Shown here: positions 2,094 through 16,500 of the stretch, piece after piece | How positions within the stretch are numbered: the first letter of the stretch is position 1 | How the letters are laid out: every line of letters begins with the position of its first letter | Assembly: GCA_030831885.1 (NCBI GenBank) | Contig: JAURKF010000264.1 | Coordinates: forward strand, 1-17,942 | Length of the DNA: 17,942 bases | Source of the DNA: Flavobacteriales bacterium | GTDB lineage: Bacteria; Bacteroidota; Bacteroidia; Flavobacteriales; UA16 | Direction: 5' to 3' | The notes under the pieces: model-generated | What the model saw: the letters and a program-made list of their open reading frames with translations, nothing else | What the model was told of the DNA's origin: nothing | The model's database searches: none | Made by a program: the position numbers and the translations under genes

Positions 2094-3560
2094 TCATTTC
2101 TCTTTAATCAGAAAAAATCCCAATGTTGCGGTCAATCCGGCAATCGCTATCGGATACCAAAGACCGGAAAATATGTTACCCGTGCTCACTACCATCGACT
2201 CGGCAATTAGCGGGGTTAAGCCACCAAAAACACCATTACCGATGTGATAGGGTAGAGAAAGAGATGTGTATCGCAGCTTTGGTGGGAATAGTTCGACAAG
2301 GAAAGCTGCAATGGGGCCGTATGCCATACATACAAACAAGAGCTGAATAAAAATTATGATTGCAATAACAAGGATATTGCCCGATGGCAATTCGATAGTA
2401 TTTGTTGTTTTCAAGACTTTGCTTCTCGATTCATCCAAATATTCGATTACTTCCGCTCTACTGCCCCCATTCGTATAGGTATGGAGTATGGTTAGCTCAA
2501 ATGTGTTTGGCAACTTACGTGCTGTTATGTGCGGCTGCTCAGCACCAGTTACATTGGGAGTCCAGGTTTTCCAGTCTGCTTGTGCTGCCATTTGCTTGTA
2601 TAGGGGCATATAACTGCATGCAGCAATTGCCATCCCGGTTAGCATGATCCATTTTCGGCCCACTCGATCCGACCATGTGGCAAACAGAATAAAGAAAGGC
2701 GTACCCAACAATAACACGGGTATGAGCATCCATTGAATTTGAGAGGATTCAATATTCAATGTTTTAATGCAAAAGTTCATCGCATAAAATTGCCCGGTGT
2801 ACCACACCACACCTTGGCCTGCTGCAGCACCGAAAAGAGCAATGAGGACATACTTTAAGTTGCTCCATTTTCCAAAACTCTCCCTTAACGGATTCTTAGA
2901 AGTCTGTCCTTGTGCCTTCAGCTCTTTGAACACAGGAGACTCTTCCATTTTTGTTCGGATGTAGTAGGAGATTATCACCAAGAGGAGTGAAAAAAGGAAT
3001 GGAAGTCGCCAACCCCAGCTGTTAAAATCATCGGGCGACATCAGCGATCGGCATCCTAAAATGACGATGAGTGAAAGCAGTAAGCCAATGGTTGCAGTTG
3101 TTTGAATGAAGCTTGTGTAGTAGCCTTTTTTATGATCGGGGGCATGTTCCGCAACGTAAATGACGGCACCGCCGTATTCACCGCCAAGGGCAAGGCCTTG
3201 AAGTGCTCGAAATAGGAATACTATAATAGGTGCCGCAATACCTATGCTTTCGTAGGATGGTATCAGACCAATCACGAATGTTGAACCTCCCATAATAAGC
3301 AGCGTCAACAGGAAGGTGTGTTTTCTACCTACAATATCACCAAGCCTTCCAAATACCAATGCCCCAAACGGCCGTATTACGAAACCTACTCCGAAGGCAG
3401 CGAGTGTAGCTAAAAATGCGGCCGTAAGATTTTCCTTGGGAAAAAACTGCGTTGCGATAATAGGGGCCAGGCTTCCGAATATGTAGAAGTCGTACCATTC
3501 TATCATGGTACCGACCGATGAAGCTGTTATGACCTTGCGAATCGATTCGTTGAAGTTCAT
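2094..3560 (-). CDS. MFS transporter, metabolite:H+ symporter (MHS) type
   Basis: A 488-residue inner-membrane carrier of the major facilitator superfamily. EWYDF in TM1 (21-25), the first motif A GRLGDIVGRK (71-80), and RALQGLALGGEYGGA (118-132) are typical of the metabolite:H+ symporter family that includes ProP, ShiA and KgtP. A second motif A, SDRVGRK (297-303), marks the loop between TM8 and TM9. The following loop between TM9 and TM10 (about 324-394) is hydrophilic and about 70 residues long, far longer than usual, and should be periplasmic. The substrate cannot be read from sequence; organic acids, osmolytes and amino acids are all possible. The gene starts 65 nt downstream of the SGNH/LysM gene on the same strand, so it could be a distal cistron of that unit. 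It converges with the helicase gene, 39 nt away. Confidence 0.9.
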   Translation of the reverse strand: MNFNESIRKVITASSVGTMIEWYDFYIFGSLAPIIATQFFPKENLTAAFLATLAAFGVGFVIRPFGALVFGRLGDIVGRKHTFLLTLLIMGGSTFVIGLIPSYESIGIAAPIIVFLFRALQGLALGGEYGGAVIYVAEHAPDHKKGYYTSFIQTTATIGLLLSLIVILGCRSLMSPDDFNSWGWRLPFLFSLLLVIISYYIRTKMEESPVFKELKAQGQTSKNPLRESFGKWSNLKYVLIALFGAAAGQGVVWYTGQFYAMNFCIKTLNIESSQIQWMLIPVLLLGTPFFILFATWSDRVGRKWIMLTGMAIAACSYMPLYKQMAAQADWKTWTPNVTGAEQPHITARKLPNTFELTILHTYTNGGSRAEVIEYLDESRSKVLKTTNTIELPSGNILVIAIIIFIQLLFVCMAYGPIAAFLVELFPPKLRYTSLSLPYHIGNGVFGGLTPLIAESMVVSTGNIFSGLWYPIAIAGLTATLGFFLIKEK

Positions 3561-3625: not shown

Positions 3626-5116
3626 TTAATACTTCAACTTTTGCCCCGGATGAATCAATTCATTCGCCGATATCTTATTCTTCGTTGTTAGATTCTTCAC
3701 TGTGGTTCCTGTCTTTTTTGCTATACCGGATAATGTATCTCCATTTTTTACAACGTAAATCCTGGACTTGACCGTTGTTGGTTTAGATTTCTTTTTCTCT
3801 ACCGGCTGTTTCGGTTTTTCGATTGGCGGAGGAACTTCGGTTATAGCAGGTTCGTTCTGACGTTTGCAAAGGGTTGACTCTATTTCGCTTTTCATCGAAA
3901 TAAGAGTGTTGCTCTCGCCTATATCGGCTGCTGTGAACATGGCATAGGTCATGAGCATTCCAAGCAACCGAGCGCCATCTTTATTGAAATGAAGCAGATC
4001 TTTCAGCACGAATCCTTTTTTATTCCACGTGTATAGGGAACCCCATCCACCCATTGCTTGATTGAGATCGAAGTATGCTGTATTGCATTGCAACGAAACT
4101 TTACGAAGCGCTTCATTCACATGAATTTGGCTTGGAGGTGTTTTGCCTGAACTGCGCGTGTCGGGCGCGTTGGTTATGAGAATGGGAATTCCCGGTATGC
4201 TTGATTGTATTCGTTTGATGAAGCGCGAAACCTTCCTGAAGTAGGACAGCGTGTCAATTACTTCGTAGGCTTCATTGGTGCCGTAGGAAAAAACAATCAT
4301 ATTGGGCTTGATTGCCGTGAGTTGACGGATCACATATTCTTCGTGTGTAATGAGATGTGAAAATTGTGCCCCGACCAAGCCATTTTGTTGGTAGCACAGC
4401 CCATTACCCTGATTGAACTCGAGGCCCCAAAAGGATGTAGCAACACCCGCAGTGAAAGTAATCTTGTCGGGCACATCTGAAGTCTCGAAAGTGTATGAGT
4501 AAATATCCATTCCTATCGACATGCGATTGACCAGTTTCCAAGTTGAATCGAGCAATACGTGATTTGTATCTGCAGGTGAATGAATCCAAATAGTAATTGA
4601 GTTGCTTTTCTTTCCTTTGAAGTCTTCATCGAAGGCCATCGAGAGCTGTGCTCCTTGTTGAAGCGAAATTGTATATCCCATGACGCCAATGGGTAACGAT
4701 GAGGGGTTTTTCAGCTGGGTGGCATATGTGTATTTACCGGTTATGGTTGTTTCTACACCGCTGGGTCCATAGCTTCCGCATAAACTGTAGGGGAATAAAA
4801 TACCCGATCCTCCGTTGCCACCTATCTGCTGAAATTCCTTACGCAGAGTGGAAGTGATACGGTCGGCCTGAATGTGGCTATCTCCAAAATGAATGATACG
4901 ATAAACTCCGCTTCCATGCAATAAAGAGTCGTTTAGTGCAGCCTTTACAATCTCTCCTTGCTGCAGCGGCACAAATTCATACGCACACGGTATCTCTTGT
5001 GCACGTGCGGTTTTGGATAGCAGGACGGTTAAAATTGAAAATATATAAAGGGCTGTATGGAGTTGTCGCGCAATTGCACTATAATTTGAAGGATTACAAG
5101 AATGAAAATGGGCCAT
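3626..5116 (-). CDS. Secreted SGNH hydrolase with C-terminal LysM domain (putative cell-wall O-acyl esterase or transferase)
   Basis: A 496-residue exported protein. Residues 16-39 form a signal peptide with likely cleavage after TARA. SGNH block I is HFGDSH (76-81) with Ser80 as nucleophile, block III is GTNEA (279-283), and block V is DLLH (373-376) with the Asp/His pair. Roughly 170 residues between blocks I and III are beta-rich and probably an inserted accessory domain. A Pro/Lys linker (425-450) leads to a LysM domain (453-496, with NGDTLSGIA and HPGQKLK), which in known families binds N-acetylglucosamine-containing glycans such as peptidoglycan. The ATG at 5116 is the only ATG before the catalytic domain. 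It lies inside the preceding MBOAT gene, giving an 88-nt overlap in another frame. Esterase versus acyltransferase activity cannot be decided from the motifs. Confidence 0.88.
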   Translation of the reverse strand: MAHFHSCNPSNYSAIARQLHTALYIFSILTVLLSKTARAQEIPCAYEFVPLQQGEIVKAALNDSLLHGSGVYRIIHFGDSHIQADRITSTLRKEFQQIGGNGGSGILFPYSLCGSYGPSGVETTITGKYTYATQLKNPSSLPIGVMGYTISLQQGAQLSMAFDEDFKGKKSNSITIWIHSPADTNHVLLDSTWKLVNRMSIGMDIYSYTFETSDVPDKITFTAGVATSFWGLEFNQGNGLCYQQNGLVGAQFSHLITHEEYVIRQLTAIKPNMIVFSYGTNEAYEVIDTLSYFRKVSRFIKRIQSSIPGIPILITNAPDTRSSGKTPPSQIHVNEALRKVSLQCNTAYFDLNQAMGGWGSLYTWNKKGFVLKDLLHFNKDGARLLGMLMTYAMFTAADIGESNTLISMKSEIESTLCKRQNEPAITEVPPPIEKPKQPVEKKKSKPTTVKSRIYVVKNGDTLSGIAKKTGTTVKNLTTKNKISANELIHPGQKLKY

Positions 5117-6489
5117 AGGTACAAGGGTAATGAGATAGTGTGAGAAATCAGTTTTTGTTTATAATTACTTGGGAAGAAAACAATCAGTGCAGAAATCGCA
5201 AGTAGAATGAGCACTTCAGGACGCGCTATCCAAAAGCCGGCTATTTCCAGGAGGTTATTTTCAAGAACTATTTTCTGAATGCTTGCAAATGAGCCACTGA
5301 TGGTTGACGAACGGAAGAAAATCCAAAGAATGGCAACAAAGTGGAAAGTGAGTATTATGCCTCCTGCACGTATGACCCAATTCGATCTGGTTTCCTTTGG
5401 AAATATCAATTTGTGCCCGACCAGCAAGAGGCCATGCCCCATTCCCCAAAAGACAAATTTCCAGTCGGCACCATGCCAAAATCCTCCTATGAGCATCGTG
5501 GCCATTAGAAATAGATACATAAGAAAAACTCCTTTGCGATTTCCGCCTAAAGGAATATAGATGTAGTCGCGAAGCCACAAACTCAGCGAGATGTGCCATT
5601 TTCTCCAAAATACAGTGATGTTGCTGGCACCATATGGGTTGTCGAAGTTTTCCTTGAGTTTGTAACCGAGCATGAGTGCAATGCCAATCGCTATGTCGGA
5701 ATATCCTGAGAAATCGAAATAAATTTGAAACGCATAGGCGTACATGGAGACATAATGTTCAAATCCGCTGAATCCCTCTGGTGCTTGATGAAGCATATCG
5801 ACATACTTGGCAAGATAATCGGCGATGAGGAGTTTCTTCGTCAGACCAATAGTGATTCTAAAGAGCGCTGCTTTGGCGATTACTGCATTCAGTGCAATGG
5901 GATTGTAAATCTGCGGCAGAAAGTCTTTTGCCCGCACAATAGGCCCAGCAACCAAATGAGGAAAGAAGGTCATGTAAAATCCGTAATCAATAACACGGGT
6001 AGAAGGCGGAATTTCCTTGCGGTAAACATCAACCAGATAGCTGATAGATTGAAATGTGTAAAACGATATTCCGATTGGAAGAAACAAATCGTGTTCTGAA
6101 AATTGAGTATGAAACCATTCATTCAAATTAAGAATGATGAAGTTGGCATACTTAAAATATAATAGAAACGAAAGACTATAGATGAGTGTGAAAATTAATA
6201 GGATTTTTCTCCTTACTCCCTCAAGCTTATTCAACCATTGCGCAAGAAAGAAGTCGCAAATGATAACTCCCATGAAAAGCAGAAGAAAGGGGCCACTCGA
6301 TTTGTAATAGAAAAAGAGGCTGAACAGGATGAGGTACGTTAATTTAAGCGACGCCTTCTTGGATAGGAACGCGTAACCAATCATAAAGAAGGAAAAGCAA
6401 AGCAGGAAGCTGTATTCGGTGAAGAACCAGGGTTTCTCGAAGGAATAATAGAATGCCCACTGTATGTCGGATAGAAATTTTTCGATCAT
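5029..6489 (-). CDS. MBOAT-family membrane O-acyltransferase (AlgI/PatA-like)
   Basis: A 486-residue polytopic membrane protein of the MBOAT family. In AlgI, PatA and DltB such proteins pass an acyl group, often acetyl, across the inner membrane to a periplasmic or extracytoplasmic transferase. Diagnostic stretches are LPIGISFYTFQSISYLVDVYR (137-157), DFSGYSDIAIG (259-269), the conserved FWRKWHISLS (294-303), and GGFWHGADWKF (335-345) with His339 as the expected catalytic histidine. The chain ends IQPFIYFQF, a typical AlgI-like C-terminus, so the full 3' end is real even though it overlaps the next gene by 88 nt. It begins 3 nt after the SGNH protein gene upstream, which implies translational coupling. 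The polysaccharide acceptor is not shown by this gene; the LysM domain of its partner suggests peptidoglycan. Confidence 0.93.
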   Translation of the reverse strand: MIEKFLSDIQWAFYYSFEKPWFFTEYSFLLCFSFFMIGYAFLSKKASLKLTYLILFSLFFYYKSSGPFLLLFMGVIICDFFLAQWLNKLEGVRRKILLIFTLIYSLSFLLYFKYANFIILNLNEWFHTQFSEHDLFLPIGISFYTFQSISYLVDVYRKEIPPSTRVIDYGFYMTFFPHLVAGPIVRAKDFLPQIYNPIALNAVIAKAALFRITIGLTKKLLIADYLAKYVDMLHQAPEGFSGFEHYVSMYAYAFQIYFDFSGYSDIAIGIALMLGYKLKENFDNPYGASNITVFWRKWHISLSLWLRDYIYIPLGGNRKGVFLMYLFLMATMLIGGFWHGADWKFVFWGMGHGLLLVGHKLIFPKETRSNWVIRAGGIILTFHFVAILWIFFRSSTISGSFASIQKIVLENNLLEIAGFWIARPEVLILLAISALIVFFPSNYKQKLISHTISLPLYLWPIFILVILQIIVQLRDNSIQPFIYFQF

Positions 6490-6492
6490 GGC

Positions 6493-7506
6493 TTAATATC
6501 CGCGGTCGGTGGCCGCATTGGAATGAATGACTTTACCTGACATTTTATGTCCGAATTTTTTTGGGATATCAAATTTGAAATTATAGATATCGCTTCCCTG
6601 AATGAAATGGGCAATATGCTCCATCCATATTTTATAACCCTGGTGGTTGGGATGTCGCTTGTCGTCTCCTCTTGGAAGGCTCAAGTTTTTGGAAAGGAAA
6701 AAACGCTCCGGTGTAGCGGTTTGTTCATATACTTTGTTGATGCCATAGTCCTCCATGAAATTTGCGGGCCCTATCCATAGGTAGGGAGTGCTTCCCAACT
6801 TTGCTCTTAGCAGGTTAGCTGCATTTGAGCGTTTTGCCAAATCCCTTGCATAAAGCTCATTTAGTCCTAGGACAATTACAATAAGAGAAGGTTGATATTG
6901 CTTGATAAGATTATCCACCTTGCTGGAATATCCATAATTGTAGGTTGTTGCAGAATTCCAAACGAGAGTGGCAACTAGCTTATGTCCGTTTTCTACACAA
7001 TAATCATTGAAAAGATGCACAAGGCCTCCGGCTTCCGAATCACCGATAAGTAGGATTCGCTGCTCGCTTGAATCTGTTTTCTCCACAGTGACGAACGAAG
7101 TGGTATCGGCTATATATAAGAACTCTGGCTTGTTTTCCAATTTGGTGGTATCCTCGATATCTTGCGGATCTTGAATGTCGGTCGCCATGCTATCTGCCTG
7201 AACAATTCCTATAGATAAAGGAATGTTAATAGGGATTGAGGAATCGTTCGCAGGATGCCGTTCAAGCAATTTAATCCACGGAAAAGAAGGAGATTGATAT
7301 GCATTGCTCTCACCATAGTCTAACATTTCTTGCCAAATACTAAGCGAGTCAATGGTGTCGATTTTCTTGAGGGGTGTTTCGAATATTCGAATTTCAACAG
7401 ATGAATAGTTGTAGGCGAAAAGTAAAATAAACGGGAGCCCAAGTGTAATCGCGGAGAGTAGTATCCAGCGCGAGGAGAATTGATTTTCTTTGGAATCTGA
7501 ATTCAT
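6493..7506 (-). CDS. Membrane-anchored SGNH protein (AlgJ/PatB/DltD-like O-acyltransferase partner)
   Basis: A 337-residue protein with a short cytoplasmic N-terminus, one transmembrane segment (about 14-33) and an extracytoplasmic part. Residues 40-147 are a variable, partly acidic stretch. The SGNH core follows: block I LIGDSEAGG (153-161, Ser157 nucleophile), block III LGLNEL (213-218), and block V DDKRHPN with Asp282 and His285. This single-anchor plus SGNH architecture fits the partner proteins that accept acyl groups from MBOAT proteins, such as AlgJ/AlgX, PatB and DltD. Its stop codon lies 3 nt before the MBOAT start. It follows the 191-residue secreted protein gene by 49 nt. A hydrolase rather than transferase role is possible, but the cassette layout favours transfer. 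Confidence 0.85.
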   Translation of the reverse strand: MNSDSKENQFSSRWILLSAITLGLPFILLFAYNYSSVEIRIFETPLKKIDTIDSLSIWQEMLDYGESNAYQSPSFPWIKLLERHPANDSSIPINIPLSIGIVQADSMATDIQDPQDIEDTTKLENKPEFLYIADTTSFVTVEKTDSSEQRILLIGDSEAGGLVHLFNDYCVENGHKLVATLVWNSATTYNYGYSSKVDNLIKQYQPSLIVIVLGLNELYARDLAKRSNAANLLRAKLGSTPYLWIGPANFMEDYGINKVYEQTATPERFFLSKNLSLPRGDDKRHPNHQGYKIWMEHIAHFIQGSDIYNFKFDIPKKFGHKMSGKVIHSNAATDRGY

Positions 7507-7555
7507 AGTTCACACAGCAATGTTTTCTTTTCGAAAAAATGCAACATTTTGATTT

Positions 7556-8131
7556 CTATTTCGCTCCTCCTAAACTCCACAATAATGGAAATAGAACTAT
7601 TCCATCGAATTTCCAGCATAGAGGGCAAATCTTTGGAGGATTAAGTGTTTTAATTTTCACCTTACCATCATTCTGAACCTCAATTGTCATTTGAAATTGC
7701 TGTTCGAATTCCTGCAGTGTTCGATCAGACTCCTCTTGATCGAAATATTCTGAGTAGGACATGGAATTGAGAGTTAGGTAGATAATATTACCTTGCTCTT
7801 TTGCATCGATAATTTGAGCGAAACCTTGGTGATGATTGATTTCCGGATTCTGACCTGAATAATCTTCGCGGTAGTCGAATTGGATATAGTACTGATTTTC
7901 CATACTACCCGTTATATCACTCCTAAATTCATTGGTCGCCATAATATTCACTTCTAACATCGGCCCATCGAGATCTGTAAAGCGAGGCATACTAACATGA
8001 CAGGCCTCGATACTTTGGTATATACCGGTATGTCTGGAAAGGACCTTATCCAAAGCCGATGGTGTATAATCCTGAGAGTAGATTGTACCTGCAAGGAGCA
8101 ATAGCAGAACAGCCGAGAAAGTAATATACAT
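7556..8131 (-). CDS. Secreted protein of unknown function heading the O-acylation cassette
   Basis: A 191-residue protein I do not recognise. Residues 1-19 form a signal peptide ending near IYSQ, with no lipobox cysteine. The middle is beta-rich, with alternating hydrophobic and polar stretches such as YYIQFDY (81-87) and NIIYLTLNSM (115-124), then an acidic Glu/Gln-rich segment (131-147). Near the C-terminus there is a KICPLCW motif with Cys169 and Cys172, followed by a short hydrophobic tail (178-189). The CxxC could be a disulfide or metal site. It lies 49 nt upstream of the membrane SGNH gene on the same strand, so it is probably cotranscribed with the acyl-transfer genes. A promoter-like TAnnTTTG box lies about 50 nt before its ATG. 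Confidence 0.7.
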   Translation of the reverse strand: MYITFSAVLLLLLAGTIYSQDYTPSALDKVLSRHTGIYQSIEACHVSMPRFTDLDGPMLEVNIMATNEFRSDITGSMENQYYIQFDYREDYSGQNPEINHHQGFAQIIDAKEQGNIIYLTLNSMSYSEYFDQEESDRTLQEFEQQFQMTIEVQNDGKVKIKTLNPPKICPLCWKFDGIVLFPLLWSLGGAK

Positions 8132-8181: not shown

Positions 8182-8189
8182 CAAATATA
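8182..8189 (-). promoter_or_regulatory. Candidate Bacteroidota -7 box upstream of the secreted-protein / O-acylation operon
   Basis: On the minus strand this reads TATATTTG, matching the TAnnTTTG -7 consensus of the Bacteroidota primary sigma factor. It sits 50 nt upstream of the ATG at 8131, inside an A/T-rich intergenic stretch. No convincing -33 TTG partner is seen at the usual spacing, so this rests on the -7 match and location alone. Confidence 0.4.
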
Positions 8190-9568: not shown

Positions 9569-9631
9569 TCGCTTAGAATTCTTTTGAATTCGAAATATTT
9601 ACATACTCCTATCACTTCGTTATTTTGCGCA

Positions 9632-10630
9632 ATGCACCGATTGAAGTTCATATTGGTTTCTTTTTGTATTCTCACGAATCTCAAGTTGTTGGCTCAGCAG
9701 CAATTTGATCATATGCAGCGCGAAGTATTGGAATCTTCAGCCAATCAATGGTTGTGCAAAGAGCTTCGTCTGTCTAACCCCGGCTATTTTGATTGCTCAA
9801 GGACTTTATGGACTCTCCCCAAGGCTGGAGAGTTTTTATTGTTCGGCGAACCTATTGTACTTGAACAGCAACATATCGATCGATTTCAACAATTGTGGTT
9901 TCCCAATGGCGATTGCAATCAATATCTATCGGTTGTTGCCATGGCCGATTTGTATGGACCATTATTCAAGCGCAAAGCCGAGCAGCTTCACTTGCATCCG
10001 GATATTGCCCTGCTACCGTTGGTCCTATCCGGTTGCAATCAGCAATTCAGATATGAGGATTTCGCCGGTCTTTGGGCCATGACAACTGAGATTGCGCGGA
10101 GGCAAAAACTGCGTGTCGATACGCTGGTTGATGAACGGTTGGGAGGTGATTTCACTACCGATGCTGCCTTGAAATACATCGCCTATCTTTCGAGTGAGTA
10201 TAGTGGGGACTATATGCGCGTATCGGTCGCTTATCGATGGGGTATGATGGAGGTTGCTGATACCGATTTCGCTCTGCGTGGGTTACGTTTTTTGGATGCG
10301 CTCAGACCTGAGTTAGCAGATTACTTGAGATTTCAGGCCTATACGTTTGAGCTATTTCGTTTTGCACGAAGCGAGAATCAGCTAAACAATTGCTTCGATA
10401 TTTTGGGGCATTTTCAACCTGTAATTATAGATAAACCCATACTCATTAAGGCAATTGCCCATGTATTGAATGTGGACGAGGAACGAATTCGCTCCTCGAA
10501 TCCGGTTTATACGGGAAGCTTTTTAATGCCTGGATACAGAAAGGTGCCTTTTGTACTAGAAGATACCATTATGGCACGTTTTAAAAATTCAGTGGAGAGC
10601 ATTGCTAATTGGAAACCTTCGAAGGACTAA
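9632..10630 (+). CDS. MltD-like lytic transglycosylase homologue lacking the catalytic glutamate (putative pseudoenzyme)
   Basis: A 332-residue secreted protein when started at the ATG at 9632, which gives a clean signal peptide (1-21); a TTG at 9584 would add 16 residues in front of it. Residues about 96-205 follow the MltD/Slt pattern. LLPLVLSGCN (127-136) stands where active enzymes have PLVES(x)xN, so the catalytic Glu is Leu132. GLWAMTTEIAR (146-156) replaces GLWQFMPxT, RVDTLVDER (161-169) is well kept, and AYRWG (200-204) replaces AYNAG. Residues about 263-309 match the MltD region before the usual LysM repeats, including SSNP and LMPGYRKVPFVL, but no LysM follows. Peptidoglycan binding without cleavage, or a scaffold role, is the likely reading. 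The family match is solid in outline; loss of activity is inferred. Confidence 0.75.
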   Translation: MHRLKFILVSFCILTNLKLLAQQQFDHMQREVLESSANQWLCKELRLSNPGYFDCSRTLWTLPKAGEFLLFGEPIVLEQQHIDRFQQLWFPNGDCNQYLSVVAMADLYGPLFKRKAEQLHLHPDIALLPLVLSGCNQQFRYEDFAGLWAMTTEIARRQKLRVDTLVDERLGGDFTTDAALKYIAYLSSEYSGDYMRVSVAYRWGMMEVADTDFALRGLRFLDALRPELADYLRFQAYTFELFRFARSENQLNNCFDILGHFQPVIIDKPILIKAIAHVLNVDEERIRSSNPVYTGSFLMPGYRKVPFVLEDTIMARFKNSVESIANWKPSKD

Positions 10631-14582: not shown

Positions 14583-14615
14583 TTTTGTGCAAGTACATGA
14601 GACGGAGTACTTTTG
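14583..14615 (+). promoter_or_regulatory. Bacteroidota-type promoter for the M23-LysM gene
   Basis: A -33 element TTTTG (14583-14587) and a -7 element TACTTTTG (14608-14615) are separated by 20 nt, which fits the TTG / TAnnTTTG consensus of the Bacteroidota primary sigma factor. Transcription would begin near 14621, about 30 nt before the ATG at 14651. This excludes the TTG at 14585 as a translation start, because it lies within the promoter. Confidence 0.7.
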
Positions 14616-14650
14616 CCGCCCGCAAAAAAATCGAACTAGTCAGTTGGTTA

Positions 14651-15628
14651 ATGATGAATTATAAGTTTCATATTCTATCATTTTTAGCTTTTCCTCTGGG
14701 GCTGGTTGCGATTATGGCATTCATGCCAATTCCGAAGAAAGTTGCAGCAGACAAAATTGCATACTTCAGAAGTTCCAATGATTCGGTTGTCTTTGTGGAA
14801 GCTCACTTTCCGGATCCTGCCACTTGCTTGTTTGATACAGTCAATGTATTTGGTAAGTACTGGCATAATACAAACCTATTTTCATATTCATACCCGTCTA
14901 AGGTGCCAATTCCGGATTCCATGTATTTCGTTATGTGTGATTCAGATATTGAGTTTTGTATTCCTCGCAATGGGGGAATTAATTCACCTTTTGGTCCACG
15001 CTGGGGAACAATGCACAAAGGGCTTGATATTCACCTGAATCGCGGTGATGCTGTGAAGGCTGCAATGCCTGGAAAGGTGAGATATGCGCAGTTCAATACC
15101 GGCGGTTTTGGCAACTTGGTAGTGTTGAGGCATGCCAACGGGTTGGAGACTTATTACGCTCATCTTACAGACATTAAAGTAAAGCCCAATGCATGGGTAG
15201 AGGCTGGGGCAGTAATTGGCACCGGGGGAAATACTGGAGCTGAATGGTCGGGCGAGCATCTTCATTTTGAAATGCGTTATTTAGATCGAGCATTTGACCC
15301 ACTATTGATTATTGATTGGGCCAAAAAGCAGTTGAAGTCAGATACCTTGGTTTTGCACAGGAAACACCTTCAGGTGGCGGAATCGGTTGTTAAGACAGAC
15401 GCTTCTCAGCTTTCAGATGTTCGCACAGAGTCATCAACCAGATTGCAATCGATTTATACAGAATCAAATTCGAACGCGTCCGCCCCCTCTTATCACATGG
15501 TGCGATCGGGAGATACCGTATATAGTATTGCCAGAAAATATGGCAAAAGCAGTACGAAGTTGCTCGTTCTAAATGGCCTAACGACTGAATCTACCTTGAG
15601 GATTGGCCAGCGAATTCGACTGAAGTAA
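14651..15628 (+). CDS. M23-family metallopeptidase with C-terminal LysM domain
   Basis: A 325-residue exported zinc endopeptidase of the M23 (LytM/lysostaphin) family, which cleaves peptide cross-links of peptidoglycan. The N-terminus has one hydrophobic segment (about 7-25), a signal anchor or signal peptide. The catalytic domain has PFGPRWGTMHKGLDI (113-127), where His122 and Asp126 are the first zinc ligands; YYAHL (168-172, His171); and EHLHFE (202-207), with the HxH pair. All required residues are present, so it should be active. A Ser/Thr-rich linker (about 245-279) precedes a LysM domain (281-325, with RSGDTVYSIARKYG and LRIGQRIRLK). I start it at the ATG at 14651 (a second ATG follows directly), because the longer frame from 14585 begins inside the promoter. 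Divergent from the PorE-like gene, so shared control is possible. Confidence 0.92.
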   Translation: MMNYKFHILSFLAFPLGLVAIMAFMPIPKKVAADKIAYFRSSNDSVVFVEAHFPDPATCLFDTVNVFGKYWHNTNLFSYSYPSKVPIPDSMYFVMCDSDIEFCIPRNGGINSPFGPRWGTMHKGLDIHLNRGDAVKAAMPGKVRYAQFNTGGFGNLVVLRHANGLETYYAHLTDIKVKPNAWVEAGAVIGTGGNTGAEWSGEHLHFEMRYLDRAFDPLLIIDWAKKQLKSDTLVLHRKHLQVAESVVKTDASQLSDVRTESSTRLQSIYTESNSNASAPSYHMVRSGDTVYSIARKYGKSSTKLLVLNGLTTESTLRIGQRIRLK

Positions 15629-15756: not shown

Positions 15757-16500
15757 ATGAAGAAGGCGATTCTCATATTCTCTGCTTCTGTCATTACCAT
15801 ATTGTGTGGTTGCCAAAGCAATTCAGGAAGTGGAAATGTTGACTCCAATGCGGTGTCTGCGCCTTCCTCTGCTGAACCGGCTAGGACCGAATCGGAAGCT
15901 CCTGCCTCTGAGTCTGAAACGACGCTAACCATAGTGAAGGCTCAGTCCGACAATCATCGATTTGTTGATTGGGGAAGCAAACCGGAAGAGGAAATGGAAG
16001 GCCCTACACCTACATGGGTTTGGACTGGCATGATGTGCGGAGGTTTTTATGAAGACGATTTAATGGTTTCTTCAACCCTTGCGCCTCAGGGTAAGTATAA
16101 TTATAATGTGCGCAACCTGAGCGATGACAATCCGACCTCGGCATGGGTAGAAGGTGATGCTGATTATGGCATTGGTGAGTATATTGAGGTAATGAACTGG
16201 AGCCCAATGGGCGATGGAACAGTGTCTATATTGAATGGTTACCAGGCAAGTCGTTCAAGTTGGGAAAACAACAGTAGAGTTAAGCAGCTCAAAGTTTCTC
16301 TGGACTCTAAGGATTACTGTATCATTGAATTGGCAGATGTAATGGGGATTCAGGAATTTAAATTTCCTAAGGATTTTACCTCGGCCTTGGACAAAATGGG
16401 CGAAAATCGTGGTAAAATTCGCTTTACAATTTTGGATGTGTACCCTGGATTGAAGTGGAAGGATACCGCCATATCTGAAATTTTCAGTTGCGGCGGCTAG
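15757..16500 (+). CDS. Lipoprotein with NADase-type glycan-binding domain
   Basis: A 247-residue lipoprotein. The signal peptide ends in the lipobox LCGC with Cys19 as the lipidated residue, followed by a Ser/Gly/Glu-rich linker (20-60). Residues about 85-247 form a galactose-binding-like beta-sandwich. They match the pattern of the NADase-type glycan-binding (NADase_transloc) domain: DDNPTSAWVEG (123-133), GIGEYIEV (138-145), ILNGYQ (158-163), NNSRVKQLKVSL (171-182), LDVYPGLKWKDTAISEI (226-242). In the family this domain accompanies secreted enzymes or stands alone; its ligand here is unknown. There is no enzyme domain, so a surface or periplasmic binding role is the likely reading. The preceding gap of 128 nt holds no clear TAnnTTTG box. 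The gene converges with the Omp85 gene, only 14 nt away. Confidence 0.8.
   Translation: MKKAILIFSASVITILCGCQSNSGSGNVDSNAVSAPSSAEPARTESEAPASESETTLTIVKAQSDNHRFVDWGSKPEEEMEGPTPTWVWTGMMCGGFYEDDLMVSSTLAPQGKYNYNVRNLSDDNPTSAWVEGDADYGIGEYIEVMNWSPMGDGTVSILNGYQASRSSWENNSRVKQLKVSLDSKDYCIIELADVMGIQEFKFPKDFTSALDKMGENRGKIRFTILDVYPGLKWKDTAISEIFSCGG

Follow-up and report, generated by a model that had tools for sequence, protein, structure and literature searches.

A probable peptidoglycan O-acetylation and de-O-acetylation cassette with a LysM-bearing Ape1-type protein in Flavobacteriales

The DNA analysed here, ‘the window’, is a stretch of 17,942 nt from a Flavobacteriales bacterium. The first-pass annotation described four minus-strand genes in it, the second and third separated by 3 nt and the third and fourth overlapping; all four are present in the list of open reading frames (Table 1), and both junctions are as described. 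The stop of the membrane-anchored SGNH gene (6493) and the start of the MBOAT gene (6489) leave a 3-nt gap, and the gene for the second SGNH protein, ‘SGNH-LysM’, starts 88 nt before the MBOAT gene ends. This start is probably right, because the 88-nt overlap recurs in loci L002, L003, L008 and L117, and the N-terminus coded within it aligns with homologues (e.g. P0006). The protein of 191 aa coded upstream contains a single hydrophobic span (residues 1–19); our search found only two relatives of it beyond the window, and so we do not claim it as a member of the system. The genes nearest the cassette are two MFS transporters, by Pfam. Upstream, no full match to the Bacteroidota-type promoter pattern was found; one TANNTTTG box lies at 8189–8182, and across the window such boxes number 10, against 15.2 expected.

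Table 1. Features of the cassette in the window
Feature	Position	Strand	Remarks
Putative secreted protein, 49 nt upstream of the SGNH gene	7556–8131	minus	191 aa
Membrane-anchored SGNH protein, probable PatB-like O-acyltransferase	6493–7506	minus	337 aa
MBOAT protein, putative PatA-like acyl exporter (motif and role by analogy with PMC12148441)	5029–6489	minus	486 aa
Overlap of the MBOAT and Ape1-LysM genes	5029–5116	minus	88 nt
SGNH-LysM, predicted Ape1-type SGNH esterase with LysM	3626–5116	minus	496 aa
LysM domain of SGNH-LysM, residues 454–495	3632–3757	minus	PF01476, E 3.8e-13

Three further features of the window may be recorded. In an MFS symporter of the metabolite/H+ family (2094–3560), the profile matches are interrupted after about residue 330, in the way that an inserted soluble segment would cause. 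Other likely wall enzymes are a LysM-bearing M23 peptidase at 14585–15628 and, at 9584–10630, a protein that matches an SLT transglycosylase below the threshold. An open reading frame at 15757–16500 carries an NAD glycohydrolase translocation F5/8 type C domain (PF25302, E 9.3e-31).

The MBOAT protein matches its Pfam family with E 2.6e-23 (83.3 bits; cut-off 27). The histidine expected of the family was placed at residue 339 by the first-pass annotation, correctly, as the motif GFWHG begins at residue 336 (His codon about 5475–5473). Residues 294–299, FWRKWH, are one letter off the signature F-W-R/N-R-W-H (PMC1199599), and the C-terminus, FIYFQF (481–486), places Tyr483 in the acyl-shuttle motif FxYxxF of PatA. 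The Tyr of this motif in Campylobacter jejuni PatA becomes auto-acetylated with acetyl-CoA as the source, and PatB can take acetyl from an acetylated peptide of Neisseria gonorrhoeae PatA (PMC12148441). Of 31 loci with a membrane SGNH and an MBOAT gene, the window included, 30 have the His motif, 30 the FW..WH motif and 30 the C-terminal tail; the FW..WH motif is FWRKWH in 28, FWRRWH in two and missing from one. The single MBOAT without the tail is that of L005 (6327–7826, on a contig shared with L124), a frame without the usual His motif that ends MPFITHLF and forms a long branch; a frameshift is perhaps the cause.

By its sequence, SGNH-LysM is an Ape1-type protein. It has an N-terminal signal region, an insert resembling a carbohydrate-binding module, and a C-terminal LysM domain, and its SGNH domain is matched by Lipase_GDSL_2 (E 2.2e-9). 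The similarity to solved Ape1, itself an SGNH domain with a carbohydrate-binding-module insert, extends over the full length, and scores against proven Ape1 structures are far above those of other SGNH entries. Motif I is GDSH (78–81), in agreement with the Ape1 motif GDS(H/F); block II is GLVGA, with the Gly retained; and residues 373–376 are DLLH, with the Asp and His of the Ape1 motif VII, Dx(V/T)H, in place and Leu at the third letter, where that motif has Val or Thr. Among 43 aligned rows, Asp373 and His376 are invariant and Ser80 is present in at least 90%. Among the matches listed, 28 three-gene sets have an esterase that is not truncated at the end of a contig; LysM is present in 26 of these esterases, those of L032 and L034 being the two that lack it. 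On the esterase tree, its presence changes twice when the rows L030 and L075, whose esterases end at contig ends, are omitted, and four times when both are included. Two changes imply that LysM was gained twice, or gained and then lost; the joining forks have moderate support (81–86).

The membrane-anchored SGNH protein is more remote from known families. It has a single hydrophobic span (residues 12–34), and its predicted model comprises a transmembrane helix at 12–34, a low-confidence linker at about 61–135, and an SGNH domain at about 143–316. The catalytic residues Ser157, Asp282 and His285 occur in all 55 aligned rows (eight of them repeat contigs). An N-terminal membrane anchor and a Ser–Asp–His triad are both characteristic of PatB, as is replacement of the block II Gly by Ser or Asn. 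The window protein has Ser185 here, aligned by sequence rather than structure to the Ser of Bacteroidota PatB, and the 55 rows have Ser in 41, Gly in 12 and Ala in two. Its Pfam matches, to DUF459 (E 0.0089) and two GDSL families, are all sub-threshold; the DUF459 score is 15.8 bits where 27.2 are needed, and 18 of 34 aligned members match this family at E up to 0.01. The two wing-like β-hairpins that lie next to the active site of PatB have no counterpart in the secondary structure of the model, which lacks extended hairpins, and the window protein does not have the inserts (presumed hairpins) of the PatB proteins in L143 and L144. A search of the PDB by sequence with the SGNH profile did not find PatB. 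The first-pass annotation had proposed a structure comparison for both SGNH proteins; for the membrane SGNH, the fold search did not discriminate. We regard the membrane SGNH as a probable PatB-like transferase.

The gene order, which the first-pass annotation proposed to look for in other Bacteroidota, recurs in other genomes. A genome scan with the esterase alignment found at least 79 loci, by their titles mostly in Flavobacteriales and other Bacteroidota and nearly all in MAGs; L046 (Syntrophorhabdus) and L063 (Planktophila), whose titles fall outside Bacteroidota, were kept. Among the matches listed, 30 loci have membrane SGNH, MBOAT and Ape1-type genes in this order on one strand. With the membrane SGNH as query, 25 genomes yielded 27 places, of which 24 were extended into loci (eight are contigs already found) and G001, G002 (repeats) and G461 (a fragment) were left out. 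MBOAT directly adjoins the membrane SGNH in 23 of these 24; in L140 an A' gene (defined below) intervenes. Twenty of the extended loci show an Ape1-like gene, which lies on the opposite side of the SGNH in L126 and L134 and is of the A' kind in L140; of the others, L135 and L139 reach contig ends, and L123 and L131 have none. In L123 (7953–10837), the membrane SGNH and MBOAT genes are followed directly by a glucosaminidase gene, and elsewhere in this genome (G517) there are matches to an A'-like and to a further Ape1-like protein. The membrane SGNH is rare: with E up to 1e-8, it occurs in two of 296 genomes of the phylum sample, 18 of 299 of the order and 19 of 150 of the family, counts that include the centre genome each time and divergent members. 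This window-type protein is a PatB-like transferase candidate limited to one lineage.

Bacteroidota have other forms of the cluster. In the second form, A'–A–MBOAT, two Ape1-like proteins accompany the MBOAT. ‘A’ is an Ape1 with GDSH and a block II mostly of the GVNGA type; ‘A'’ is Ape1-like with GDS(M/F/L/Q) and a differing block II that retains Gly. A' proteins form a separate clade (28 rows, support 100), their profile matches solved Ape1 (1.4e-35), and a strong N-terminal hydrophobic span is found in 25 of 26, compared with 39 of 80 A proteins. This form corresponds, likened by order alone, to ape1b–ape1c–pat of Bacteroides and Porphyromonas (PMC1199599). Membrane-anchored A' proteins lie upstream of MBOAT, at the place of Bacteroides Ape1b, in L036, L047, L054 and others. 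A' proteins may be transferases rather than esterases.

A third form comprises MBOAT, DHHW and an Ape1-like protein with LysM (L029 5080–9389, L031, L141 7566–11691 and L142 4858–9101, from the same or related genomes). Its MBOAT ends NPFLYTRF or NPFLYFRF, and the Ape1-like protein of L141 and L142 has GGSH instead of GDSH in block I. The SGNH families beside MBOAT in Bacteroidota include PatB proper (L143, L144), the window's PatB-like protein, the DHHW/PatB1-type and A'. On the MBOAT tree, sequences cluster mostly by the kind of SGNH partner (six label changes in 90 rows, a raw count), with L046 and L140 joining as long branches. From the cluster forms and this grouping we infer that erasing usually falls to Ape1, and writing to a second SGNH that is exchangeable.

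Two simple rules fail. A second SGNH does not always adjoin Ape1, which would have marked the Ape1-like protein as the esterase: five loci have Ape1–MBOAT alone. In each of the five genomes the A' profile has a strong match at another place (E at most 1e-73, with the E-value as the sole criterion), and so this rule survives at the genome level only. Nor are the window-type SGNH and A' mutually exclusive, since some genomes have both: a strong A' match (E up to about 1e-60) occurs in two of 13 window-type genomes (G517 and G611) and in six of seven with a divergent SGNH, absences being soft in both counts.

Tentatively, we can envisage that in Bacteroidota the Ape1 (GDSH) esterase tends to stay while the MBOAT-side transferase has been swapped several times among SGNH families; that A' is a transferase, not an esterase; that LysM arose on two or more branches of the esterase, or else disappeared from some; and that the LysM esterase is a sacculus-tethered eraser working with a neighbouring glucosaminidase. 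Against this picture count the block II Gly of A', the co-occurrence of A' and the window-type SGNH, and the two PatB–MBOAT loci (L143, L144), which have no Ape1 gene within about 8–10 kb.

The neighbourhood bears on the target polymer. We scanned 69 of 71 neighbour proteins from 12 loci other than the window; 119 families were matched, of which the best 25 by member number were listed (the remainder have at most one member each). Glucosaminidase, with five matches, is the only family matched by more than two. Homologues of this PF01832 protein (query L003 9395–9856) occur in 25 fetched loci on 20 distinct contigs, no gene lying more than 190 nt from an MBOAT or esterase-type gene. In 17 window-type rows the glucosaminidase is convergent with the cassette; 16 of these rows have an esterase, and in 11 of them the two genes share 4 nt; in eight A'–A–MBOAT loci it is upstream of A' on the same strand. 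Because it accompanies two differently built clusters, it is the best evidence from context for a peptidoglycan target. It is present at eight of the 30 three-gene loci, among the matches listed, and is not beside the window cassette.

MBOAT and the membrane SGNH might instead acylate an exopolysaccharide, lipopolysaccharide or other surface polymer, in the manner of AlgI/AlgJ, with the LysM esterase adjacent by chance. LysM domains can bind GlcNAc polymers besides peptidoglycan, and in five loci (L044, L064, L071, L073 and L077) an Ape1–MBOAT pair directly follows a sugar-nucleotide-type gene, named from its N-terminus by eye. MBOAT–SGNH pairs also act on several polymers (PMC12148441). We nevertheless consider this reading improbable, given that the third gene encodes a full-length Ape1 homologue, that glucosaminidase is the only family with more than two matches in the neighbour scan, and that the peptidoglycan of Bacteroides species in which related clusters occur is O-acetylated (PMC1199599). 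A consistent neighbourhood of exopolysaccharide genes, which the first-pass annotation named as counter-evidence, was not found among the 69 proteins of the 12 loci, and exopolysaccharide acetylation was rejected on the result of that scan.

Less probable again is that the roles are swapped or shared, Ape1-LysM being the transferase at the sacculus and the membrane SGNH an esterase or intermediate carrier. The block II Gly of SGNH-LysM, its far higher match to proven Ape1 structures than to other SGNH entries, the close adjacency of membrane SGNH and MBOAT, and the grouping of the MBOAT tree all argue against it, although both SGNH proteins have a complete Ser–Asp–His set, and PatB itself was originally named Ape2 and taken for an esterase (PMC9487903, section 9). 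Aminoacyl transfer of the DltB/DltD kind, in place of acetate, is very improbable: DltB proteins are the only PDB and NCBIfam relatives of the MBOAT found by sequence, but the DltB model TIGR04091 scores 164.1, below its cut-off of 375, and the MBOAT carries its own acyl-shuttle motif, like PatA, instead of relying on a DltX-like microprotein for it (PMC12148441), so that score and architecture together rate this transfer low.

Among known systems, the PatA/PatB/Ape1 (OAP) clusters of Neisseria and Campylobacter are similar in having, all adjacent, an MBOAT with the His and C-terminal FxYxxF, a membrane-anchored SGNH, and a secreted full-length Ape1. They differ in order (pat–ape2(patB)–ape1 there, SGNH–MBOAT–Ape1 here; PMC1199599), in the transferase candidate, here a remote DUF459 relative without the PatB inserts, and in the LysM with which Ape1 ends here. 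MBOAT with two SGNH genes was described in Bacteroidota in 2005, as ape1b–ape1c–pat, in a paper that reports peptidoglycan O-acetylation of 69.4% in B. fragilis and 27.0% in B. thetaiotaomicron (PMC1199599). There, both SGNH proteins are classed as Ape1 and lie upstream of MBOAT, whereas here one is not Ape1-like and Ape1 is downstream; LysM, present on Ape1 here, has no occurrence in that paper. The MBOAT–DHHW (PatB1-type) systems likewise have an SGNH-fold partner and, in the four loci above, an Ape1-like LysM third gene, but belong to another SGNH family (PF14286) and another MBOAT clade. In a search of mostly open-access literature, no title or abstract opening mentions an Ape1–LysM fusion or the order SGNH–MBOAT–Ape1. 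The kind of system is known, and its flavobacterial form, with a cell-wall-binding domain on the removing enzyme, is little described. New here are the permuted gene order, the lineage-limited PatB-like transferase candidate, and the predicted LysM-bearing Ape1.

We conclude that the cassette is quite probably an operon of the PatA/PatB/Ape1 kind that O-acetylates peptidoglycan and de-O-acetylates it. The main proposal of the first-pass annotation, that peptidoglycan is O-acylated by one SGNH protein as transferase and de-acylated by the other as esterase, is the best-supported reading, and roles can be given to the two: SGNH-LysM is of the Ape1 type, and the membrane SGNH is the probable PatB-like transferase. 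The genes, motifs, predicted fold, conservation and gene order are its observed basis; the donor, the acceptor, the direction of each SGNH reaction and the binding by LysM are deduced. The gene set would attach acetyl groups to the cell wall and later strip them off: the MBOAT would act as a PatA-like acyl exporter and the membrane SGNH as the transferase, and the secreted Ape1-type protein, which LysM would anchor to the sacculus, would remove acetyl groups from peptidoglycan, re-opening the glycan to the cell's own lytic enzymes.

This would extend a wall-modification pathway studied in pathogens to a mostly uncultured group of Bacteroidota. The combination of a frequent constant part, Ape1, with a variable part, the transferase candidate, offers a handle on which SGNH does what, a question that also concerns Bacteroides and Porphyromonas, whose two SGNH partners were both given the name of esterase in 2005. 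Through its LysM, Ape1 would bind de-acetylation to the sacculus; the glucosaminidase neighbouring the cassettes of relatives is a concrete enzyme whose access Ape1-LysM may control.
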